From Roseibium aquae (lineage in GTDB: Bacteria > Pseudomonadota > Alphaproteobacteria > Rhizobiales > Stappiaceae), in contig NZ_VXDC01000007.1 of NCBI RefSeq assembly GCF_008711285.1, forward strand, positions 124,001-188,000: a DNA stretch of 64,000 nucleotides. Reading direction: 5' to 3'. This document shows positions 2,006 through 41,282 of the stretch, piece after piece. How positions within the stretch are numbered: position 1 is the stretch's first letter; each line of letters opens with the position of its first letter. A program made the translations under genes and the position numbers. Under the pieces are notes generated by a model. That model saw nothing but the letters and a program-made list of their open reading frames with translations, searched no databases and was not told the origin of the DNA.

Positions 2006-2141
2006 TTCTGGGTGTCTCCTATCGCTCGTGCTTGTTGACATGAATCGAAGCGATTTGCTTGGAGAAAGGGTGGTCCAACAGGGTAAACAATTGGTTGTCA
2101 GAAATGCAAAATGAGGCCGTAAGGGCCGACGGGCCTTATTC

Positions 2142-2210
2142 AGATGCGCGGTCCCTCAAGAAGCGATCAGCTTAGGCGTGAAACCGGTTCCGGTTAAACG
2201 CCTGCTGATC
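2142..2210 (-). repeat. Palindromic repeat element, copy A, with conserved flank
   Basis: Read on the minus strand, outer arms GATCAGC and GCTGATC (2165-2210) enclose further stems AGGCGT/ACGCCT and AACCG/CGGTT around a GAAC loop. After the right arm comes a flank, TTCTTGAG, three bases, CCG, one base, GCATCT. The same outer arms and flank occur at 20472-20538. It sits 50-120 bases after the stop of the tail-anchored protein gene and may act as its transcription stop, though a clean U-run is missing. It looks like a dispersed REP-type palindrome. Confidence 0.6.
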
Positions 2211-2261
2211 GAGCCGCTGGCGGAAGCCGTTCAGGCCGCACGGACTAAGAGATGAGAACCG

Positions 2262-15506: not shown

Positions 15507-15778
15507 CCAGCGCTTGGATACCGGCGGTTGGCAATGGGGACTGCCCACCGCCCGTTTTCCTCGGCGTTGCCGGAGCATTCGGGTCCATCGCAAACCCGGA
15601 ACTTTTCGGGAACATGGATCCTGTGATTGGAGCGCCGGCGTTATGAGCGACGCTCGGCGGACGCTCTCATATCTGGATTCCGATCAGCGCGCGGAAAAAG
15701 GCCGGTTGCGGCTTGTCGCCCGCTGATCCGGTACCGTTGCGCGCGCGGAGCAGCCGACGGATGTAAGGGGTGGGGAAT

Positions 15779-20414: not shown

Positions 20415-20471
20415 CTGGGCGGCCGGACGGTTTGCCGGGCCTTGCCCAACCCTTGGCCTGCAATAGCTCTA

Positions 20472-20538
20472 GATCAGCGGGTGTTCAATCGACATCGATT
20501 CAACACCCGCTGATCTTTTCTTGAGTTGCCGGGCATCT
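20472..20538 (+). repeat. Palindromic repeat element, copy B, also a strong terminator
   Basis: GATCAGCGGGTGTT and AACACCCGCTGATC form a perfect 14-base stem. After a single C-C mismatch the stem continues with AATCG and CGATT around an ACAT loop, and TTTTCTTG follows, so it should end transcription of the alpha/beta hydrolase gene. The outer seven bases of each arm and the flank (TTCTTGAG, three bases, CCG, one base, GCATCT) match copy A at 2142-2210, while the inner stems differ in sequence but both pair. Confidence 0.75.
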
Positions 20539-20568
20539 TTGGGCGTTTCGAACAAACAGCCCGATACT

Positions 20569-21768
20569 CTAGAAGGACCGCTGGATGCGGAAAGATCCGA
20601 CGAATTCGTTGGTGTCCGCGAGGCCCGACACGGCGCTGTAATCCAGGTCACGGTATTGGATCTCGGCACCGATCTCCAGGCCGGACACCGGCACCCAGGT
20701 CACGTTCGGCGTAATGTCCCATTGGGTGAAGTCGAACGCGGACACGCCAGCATCGGCATTGTGATAGCCGGCATCGAGGTTGAAGCTTACGGTGCCGGAC
20801 AGCGGCTGGTGGATACCGCCATAGATGCTCCAGGTCTTGGTCGTTCTCGTATCGGTGCCATCCACGACCACGGCATCGGTGATCCTGTTTGCCCAGCCTG
20901 TGGTCGCATAGCCGCTCGCGCCGTCTGTATAGACCCCTTGCAGCGCGACCTTCGTTTTGCCGCCTCCGAAGAACTGGCCGAGCTTGACTTCGACGCCGCC
21001 CCCGATCGCCCAGCCAAGCGGGCTGTCCGCGACGGCGGCTGTGGAGGAATTGACATAGACGTGGTGCAGCGCACCCATCAATTGCGCGGAGCCCCAATCC
21101 TGATCGATGTTCAGATTGGCGACGAGATCCGGCCACTTGTGGCCACCGTAAAGATTGGTCGACACCAGGGTTCCGACACCCGCAATGTTGTTGCGCCGTT
21201 CTGTGCCATGCTCGACCGAAAGGCTGGCGGAAAGGTCGTTGCCGAAGCCATAGGTGTAGGCAAAAAGATTTGATTCCGTGTCGGAATAGGTTTCCAGCTG
21301 CATATCCATCGCATAGCCGGTCCAGAAGTCCCAAAAGGACGTGGCACGGCCTGCGGTCAGCCCGCCGAACTGGATGTAAGCATATTCGAGCGTCGGATCG
21401 TCGCTTCCCCCTGTTGTGTTGGTGATGTAGTAACCGACATAGGTGCGCAGAAGTCCGAATTCTGTGTGTGTCCTTGCGTCGAGGCGCACGTAACCCCGAG
21501 CCCGGAATTCGGTGCTCATGTCGGTGTCGCTGTCCCAACGGTTCGGGGCATCACCGAAGTCGCGGAATCGGTAATCGGCCCGGACCCGCCCAGATACCCG
21601 CAGACAGGTTTCGGTCCCGGGCAGATAAAAGAAGCCGTTCCCGTGCGCATCGCAGACCCGGACGTAGGCCACCGGCTCCGGTGCAACCGGGAGATCAGCT
21701 GCATATGCGCCGTTCAAAGCGGTCGCGCTGCACAGGCCAATTGTGGCAACAACTGAAGTGAGTTTCAT
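20569..21768 (-). CDS. Outer-membrane porin, Rhizobiales type
   Basis: 399 residues with a signal peptide ending GAYAAD, then alternating hydrophobic/aromatic strands and a C-terminal Phe (IQRSF), the export signal for beta-barrel insertion. The pattern (PVAPEPVAYVRVCDAHGNGFFYLPGTETCLRVSGRVR, in parts) is that of the Omp2/RopA-like porins of Rhizobiales: a short VRVC..G..FFY..G..TCL region with two Cys, then GRVRADYRF. It should form a trimeric pore for small solutes. GGAGG lies eight bases before the ATG. It is convergent with the alpha/beta hydrolase, with the copy B repeat between them. Confidence 0.9.
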   Translation of the reverse strand: MKLTSVVATIGLCSATALNGAYAADLPVAPEPVAYVRVCDAHGNGFFYLPGTETCLRVSGRVRADYRFRDFGDAPNRWDSDTDMSTEFRARGYVRLDARTHTEFGLLRTYVGYYITNTTGGSDDPTLEYAYIQFGGLTAGRATSFWDFWTGYAMDMQLETYSDTESNLFAYTYGFGNDLSASLSVEHGTERRNNIAGVGTLVSTNLYGGHKWPDLVANLNIDQDWGSAQLMGALHHVYVNSSTAAVADSPLGWAIGGGVEVKLGQFFGGGKTKVALQGVYTDGASGYATTGWANRITDAVVVDGTDTRTTKTWSIYGGIHQPLSGTVSFNLDAGYHNADAGVSAFDFTQWDITPNVTWVPVSGLEIGAEIQYRDLDYSAVSGLADTNEFVGSFRIQRSF

Positions 21769-25312: not shown

Positions 25313-25614
25313 CAGACGGTCCTCCTCAAGAGCTCACCGGACAGGCCAACTATTAAGGTTAGAACCGGCTCGGCAACTGGCAAGTGATTTTCACACTGTT
25401 GCGGTGGGGCGCTGAAAAAAGAACTGGCAACCGGCCTTGGGATGTTACCCAGGACCAGCTGCCAAGTGGAGGCAGGCGGGAGGAAGACCCTGCCCCGAAA
25501 AACGGACCCGAGAACGGGCGAGATCAGCGGAGGACATGCCGTATGCGGCTTCCGCTCGGAAGCTGACCTATATCGATATGCTTGCGCATCCGGCGTGTTC
25601 ACACGCTCGATGCT
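25313..25614. other. Gene-free gap upstream of the MBL-fold gene
   Basis: About 300 bases between two minus-strand genes. They should include the MBL promoter. A six-base hairpin (GCTTCC, four bases, GGAAGC) lies near 25550. I recognise no RNA family and no convincing frame. Confidence 0.4.
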
Positions 25615-25950
25615 CTAAACCCTGCTTAACGAAACCGGCCGTTTTCCATGCCGCGGGAGCGATGCGTCGGCCCCCGGCAAACCGAGCCGTTCGGCGGCTT
25701 GCTGATGGATGATGTTGCCGGCGTAACCTGCTTCCTTGATCAAACCTTCCCGGGTGCAATCCGCGGCAACCGCGAGGCCCAAGGGCCTAAGATGCGCCCG
25801 CCGGTAACAGTAGACCGCCAATTGGCTCCGTTGAGGGCTGGGCAGCCGCCGCGCCTGCTCGGTGGCCTGGGAAAGTGTCTCGGCAGTCAGTTGCCGCAGC
25901 ACTTCTTCGCTCACGGGGCAGTTTTCGATATCAACGGAACCGTGTTTCAT
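25615..25950 (-). CDS. Small conserved-looking protein of unknown function
   Basis: About 111 residues from the ATG at 25950; a TTG at 25977 would add nine. The core, EEVLRQLTAETLSQATEQARRL, then RSQLAVYCYRRAHLRPLGLAVAADC, is helical and regular in composition, which argues for a real protein. I recall similar short proteins of unknown role in Rhizobiales but cannot name the family. There is no signal peptide or membrane helix. The upstream region is strongly AT-rich for this genome and probably holds its promoter. The ribosome site is weak. Confidence 0.6.
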   Translation of the reverse strand: MKHGSVDIENCPVSEEVLRQLTAETLSQATEQARRLPSPQRSQLAVYCYRRAHLRPLGLAVAADCTREGLIKEAGYAGNIIHQQAAERLGLPGADASLPRHGKRPVSLSRV

Positions 25951-41144: not shown

Positions 41145-41282
41145 GAGCGCGCTGAAGCGCATAGCGCATGGGGCGTTCGCAGAAGCCGCGCATCATGCTT
41201 CCACATCTCAAGATCGACCGGCGGCCGGGCAAAGCCGTTTCCGTTTCCGCGCCCGCCGATCCAGACAGGACACGCTTGACCT

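Follow-up and report, generated by a model that had tools for sequence, protein, structure and literature searches.

A CTAG-flanked two-hairpin intergenic repeat of Roseibium aquae, a probable mobile element of the CIR/RIME type

The stretch of DNA analysed here (the window) comprises 64,000 nucleotides of the Roseibium aquae genome (contig NZ_VXDC01000007.1, positions 124,001 to 188,000). It carries a complete copy of an intergenic repeat (copy B), a truncated copy (copy A), and further copies that have diverged (Table 1). Copy B starts 54 bp past the stop of a hydrolase gene and ends on the stop of a convergent porin gene (20569-21768, minus strand, with a Porin_2 match), while copy A starts 48 bp past the stop of the gene at 2262 and ends after GCATCT. 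The original prediction had described, in two copies, outer arms GATCAGC/GCTGATC around inner stems that differ in sequence yet still pair, followed by a shared flank made of TTCTTGAG, CCG and GCATCT; all of this is present in both copies where it had been placed. The size given for the unit, 67-69 bases, was too small. The real unit is about 107 bp, and what had been taken for a fixed 3' flank is the linker together with the 5' arm of a second hairpin.

Table 1. Copies of the repeat in the window and the parts of copy B.
Feature	Position	Strand	Evidence
Copy B, complete: CTAG, hairpin 1, linker, hairpin 2, CTAG	20469..20572	+	Model R1, 102.9 bits, E=6.5e-25
Copy B, hairpin 1, GATCAGCGGGTGTTCAATCG / CGATTCAACACCCGCTGATC	20472..20515	+	Sequence, fold, model alignment
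Copy B, linker, TTTTCTTGAGTTGCC	20516..20530	+	Alignment
Copy B, hairpin 2, outer arms GGGCATC...GATACTC	20531..20569	+	Alignment
Copy B, CTAG at the right end, doubling as the TAG stop of the convergent porin gene	20569..20572	-	Gene call, -4 overlap
Copy A, truncated: runs from the left end through hairpin 1 and the linker into the start of hairpin 2	2136..2213	-	Model R3, E=2e-5
Diverged copy, intergenic	15627..15731	-	Model R3, E=2e-6; model R1, E=4.3e-5
Diverged copy, intergenic	25519..25618	+	Model R3, E=1.2e-5
Probable diverged copy, intergenic, weak	41161..41264	-	Model R1, E=1.6e-4; no R3 match

Alignment of the copies gives the full unit as CTAG, hairpin 1, a 14-nt linker, hairpin 2 and again CTAG. 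The consensus, CTAGATCAGCGGGCGTTTAATCGGAACCGATTTCACGCCCAAAGCTGATC-GCTTCTTGAGTGGCC-GCGCATCTTTGGGCGTTTCAAACAAAACGCCCGATGCGCTAG, has 107 bases and two hairpins, with a folding free energy of -53.3 kcal/mol (z-score -7.6; copy B itself, -6.9). In each of the 6 cases tested against shuffled-arm controls, hairpin 2 turned out to be hairpin 1 in inverted and diverged form, which makes the unit an inverted dimer of the kind known from BIMEs. Apart from the arms, the element has only weak terminal inverted repeats, a point against the mobile-element explanation preferred below. Model R1 aligns copy A across 2126-2213 (66.5 bits), with the interior of hairpin 2 absent. With up to three mismatches, TTCTTGAGNNNCCGNGCATCT occurs twice in the window, against 0.19 occurrences expected by chance; genome-wide it is found 41 times, and a reversed control pattern 6 times. 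A search of the window with Rfam gave nothing at gathering thresholds, and only chance-level families at E<=10.

The two copies first noticed belong to a multicopy family, as had been proposed. A covariance model search of the 4.4-Mb genome returned 76 matches at E<=1, 48 of which we count as distinct strong copies. Their mean identity is 0.70 and the best pair reaches 88%, while Rhizobium copies are up to 98% identical at different sites; the copies of R. aquae are old and decaying, and some of those in Rhizobium are recent. Family matches were found in R. denhamense, R. marinum, R. sediminis, R. hamelinense, R. aggregatum and others of the genus Roseibium (Labrenzia), family Stappiaceae, the number per Roseibium genome ranging from none found to about 100. 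Within the order, a Roseibium-wide model that was given 13 candidates per genome to score placed the family in at least 56 of 297 genomes, belonging to at least 30 of 122 genera. A single Rhizobium copy used as query matched 548 plasmid records, nearly all from Rhizobium, Sinorhizobium, Ensifer or Agrobacterium. Model R3, built from an order-wide alignment that contains no Stappiaceae copy, nevertheless recovers window copies A and B (46.8 bits and E=1.6e-9 for copy B), which makes the Stappiaceae and rhizobial repeats one family. Matches outside the Stappiaceae to the pattern run on the genome collection (Rhizobium lusitanum, Gelidibacter and others) were discarded as chance-like, having no second hairpin.

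Several arrangements of the element deserve mention in their own right. R. marinum has eight near-identical tandem copies with a period of exactly 103 bp, neighbouring copies having a CTAG in common (L120:3682-4498, NZ_PPCN01000005.1), and a second tandem pair lies at G021:C5:93036-93243. Genome G209 has a mosaic variant that lacks hairpin 1 and carries hairpin 2 twice, as a direct tandem (L393:1501-1597), and elsewhere a sul1 RNA (RF03058, 72.8 bits) 10 bases past an element copy (L290:1617-1672). At L076 (G020:C2), the element at 1501-1606 directly follows the 3' end of a putative tRNA or tmRNA (GGGTTCGACTCCCCT).

Mobility, which the original prediction had raised as a possibility, is borne out by species-specific sites and by alleles that are free of the element. 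At the best locus of the R. aquae genome (L031), none of the 29 relatives inspected has the element, 3' of which the native terminator is still in place. The stop in each of these 29 relatives is TGA; the TAG at this locus would therefore seem to have come with the element, unless the ancestor differed, and this counts against the explanation preferred below. At a sigma-factor/TrmH locus the site is empty in R. hamelinense and holds a single CTAG, which is the stop of the sigma-factor gene; at another locus, CTAG or TTAG is already found at the equivalent stop in three relatives without the element there. Plasmid alleles give the insertion base by base. On pRL12-like plasmids, five Rhizobium strains without the element have the empty site CCTCC-CA-AGGCAG, whereas filled alleles read CCTCC-TA-[CTGCAT...GCGCTG]-TA-AGGCAG or CCTCC-CA-[...]-TA-AGGCAG. 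The insertion is of 103 bp, that is an element of about 101 bp plus two duplicated bases, TA (YA), in agreement with the tandem period of R. marinum. Likewise, an empty CCC-TTA-GG in S. medicae corresponds to a filled CCC-TA-[...]-TA-GG in S. meliloti. Two details count against reading this as a TA duplication: the empty pRL12 allele has CA rather than TA, and the allele of S. meliloti LMB1 has no TA at the site. The duplication was read from two resolved plasmid loci and one Roseibium locus, a fourth (pRL9) being not resolvable, and no element-free alleles were found at the two pSK03 loci where they were sought. At the pSymB locus of S. meliloti and S. medicae (L403/L405), the empty target of S. 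medicae falls in the middle of a GC-rich palindrome (GGCGGCCCTTAGGCCGCC), and insertion was apparently into the loop of a hairpin.

We consider it probable, at roughly two chances in three, that the repeat is a non-autonomous mobile element, short at about 101 bp to which the duplicated TA is added, and that it represents the Roseibium branch of a group of two-armed palindromic repeats of the CIR/RIME type found across the order. Its insertion adds 103 bp and duplicates TA (YA), most often inside CTAG. According to Tenzen and Ohtsubo, as cited in PMC2170065, IS630 prefers the TA of CTAG and duplicates TA; since this combination is the signature of IS630, we infer a DDE transposase of the IS630/Tc1-mariner type, which would act in trans and cut at TA.

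The covariation of the stems, also predicted at the outset, is evident in the wider alignments. Among the Roseibium copies, 92.3% of cells are paired, with 68 double changes against 17.7 after shuffling, and in the order-wide alignment, from which Stappiaceae were left out, covariation is seen at 27 of 34 pairs and double changes number 192, compared with 60 after shuffling. Within the R. aquae genome many stems are broken and covariation is weak (84.7% of cells paired, 82.0% shuffled). RNAalifold recovered almost no structure from these copies alone because they have decayed; the Roseibium-wide and order-wide sets resolved it. Selection on an RNA strand finds no support, as G-U and A-C cells are about equally frequent (22 vs 25 and 49 vs 45), although RNA read from both strands would look alike. 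Such covariation of the arms is unexpected if the element is recognised by its terminal sequence only, and it counts against our preferred explanation. A possible but doubtful reading of the fold is that the covariation is mutational and not selected, template switching within the palindrome correcting one arm from the other. Pairing is indeed kept despite a fast turnover of the inner stems, and RNA-strand selection has left no sign, but the stems of the old R. aquae copies decay instead of being corrected. Template switching also leaves the dispersal of the repeat unexplained; it bears on nothing but the fold and does not conflict with a mobile element. Another suggestion, which we regard as unlikely, is that the order-wide element inserts in the IS630/Tc1 manner, duplicating the TA of CTAG, but that recognition depends on the shape of its two inverted hairpin arms and not on terminal sequence, since the arms covary across the order without RNA-strand bias. 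To our knowledge, no substrate recognised by shape has been described for DDE transposases; if true, the arms would be a transposition substrate new for these enzymes.

The likeness to REP or BIME elements, put forward in the original prediction, holds in part. The element shares with REPs, BIMEs and REPINs (PMC3733652, PMC3116915) an inverted palindrome doublet (a head-to-head dimer), the formation of tandem arrays, and a position mostly 3' of genes and between convergent genes. It differs in its foot, CTAG where theirs is GTAG or GGAG, in its TA duplication, and in the absence from the R. aquae genome of a RAYT (Y1 HUH), the REP-associated tyrosine transposase that had been suggested as a companion and that is missing as well from most of the genomes that carry the element. 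That the repeats are true REP/BIME/REPIN elements, moved as single-stranded DNA by a tyrosine transposase that recognises hairpins plus a tetranucleotide, would suit the homologous inverted arms, the conserved foot tetranucleotide, the bulge in the same arm and the shared CTAG of the R. marinum array, and a fold conserved without an excess of G-U over A-C suits recognition at the DNA level. We nonetheless hold it to be distinctly unlikely. PF01797 has no match in the R. aquae genome even at E<=10, so a RAYT was rejected as mobiliser there; it is absent from Rhizobium G059 despite dispersed copies that are 98% identical, and reaches only sub-threshold scores in R. denhamense, with its roughly 100 copies, and in G007. 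No element lies within 1.5 kb of the PF01797 genes in G010, G014 and G021, and transposition of this kind would not be expected to duplicate a TA. Two of these genes, neither flanked by the element, lie at G021:C7:220451-220813 (L091) and G014:C11:76491-76844 (L089); that of G021 contains an internal TGA.

The repeats also overlap stop codons, and a position after the stops of genes, as first described, is supported. None of the 48 strong copies reaches into a gene beyond its very end, the others being confined to gaps; 28 of the 48 are within 15 nt of a stop, and 20 overlap the stop of the neighbouring gene by exactly four bases, these being CTAG or a variant. The exact four-base overlap is found at 21 of 73 facing gene ends, every other overlap length being seen at most once, and recurs in 13 of 40 copies outside the Stappiaceae. 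Of 46 copies, 27 lie between convergent genes, an arrangement shown by 4 of the 29 gaps of the window (p=1e-4). This excess is stronger than the stop overlap, and may also reflect avoidance of promoters. Outside the elements, 3 of 8 non-genic CTAG sites in the window are stops (small numbers). With about one third of non-genic CTAG being stops, random insertion at CTAG followed by loss of the harmful insertions is sufficient to produce the stop overlap.

It is very unlikely that the repeat is mainly a cis element serving the host, as a two-way terminator or a protector of mRNA 3' ends between convergent genes, with mobility incidental. The shares of copies near stops and between convergent genes speak for such a role, as do the very stable fold and the TTTTCTTG that follows hairpin 1 of copy B. 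Against it, a simple terminator scan found nothing at copy B, the sites are not common to different species, L031 is empty in every relative inspected and has kept its native terminator, and the R. aquae copies decay, many with broken stems; random CTAG insertion with loss from genes gives a similar share of stops. In the mobile-element explanation, insertions at stops and between convergent genes would do little harm and keep a stop in place, and surviving insertions would cluster at stops because CTAG is rare inside genes and common at their ends (xxC TAG). A CTAG target is thus a simple reason for finding palindromes on stops, and no terminator function is needed. An IS5-group MITE with a 4-bp YTAR (CTAG) target duplication would explain why most copies begin and end with CTAG or a variant of it and why CTAG, TTAG or CTAA is found at stops, but is very improbable, as the resolved pRL12-like locus of Rhizobium reads C(T/C)AC on the left, GTAA on the right and CCAA when empty, outer bases that fit a 2-bp and disfavour a 4-bp duplication.

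Judged by their descriptions, the closest known systems are the CIR and RIME1 repeats of alphaproteobacteria. RIME1 is reportedly 106-109 bp long, with two large palindromes, and multicopy and intergenic in Rhizobium and Sinorhizobium; measured against this description, the likeness lies in members of our covariance family being abundant in Rhizobium and Sinorhizobium plasmids. The rhizobial and Roseibium copies have structure and short anchors in common, but little primary sequence. In one member of the Rhizobiaceae (G342, L348:7094-7193), an element lies immediately 3' of pckA, beside chvI-chvG. We take the pckA-chvI region to be the one where RIMEs were described, so this may be the RIME type locus. 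The name stands for Rhizobium-specific intergenic mosaic element (Osteras et al. 1995, as cited in PMC2573895).

CIRs, the CcrM-associated intergenic repeats (Chen and Shapiro 2003), are described in the review PMC2229807 as alphaproteobacterial, intergenic repeats of about 110 bp with two long inverted-repeat arms, a linker and TA termini. The anatomy of the Roseibium element is similar: about 107 bp, two independent stem-loop arms joined by a linker, TA within CTAG/YTAR at both ends, and an intergenic position. The defining motif of CIRs is a GANTC methylation site in the loop of one arm (PMC2229807). GAATC (GANTC) is found in the hairpin-1 loop of 16 of 24 relatives outside the Stappiaceae, but in R. 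aquae GANTC is at chance level (9 sites vs 9.3 expected), and we therefore do not file its copies as CIRs. RUP, a TA-flanked repeat of 107 bp believed to be mobilised by a relative of IS630, and ERIC/IRU, TA-flanked MITEs (PMC2229807), resemble the present element in their length of about 100-130 bp, their non-coding nature and their TA target duplication. Repeats other than CIR fold, according to the same review, by pairing of their two ends, whereas here each half folds on itself. The finding extends the CIR/RIME-type family to the Stappiaceae. The kind of element is itself known; what is new is the insertion signature, a TA duplication, and the landing on stop codons. For CIRs, PMC2229807 marks the target duplication as unknown and asks for the mechanism of movement, while for the present element a TA duplication is seen, and element-free alleles that display it make the mechanism by which CIR/RIME-type repeats move testable.
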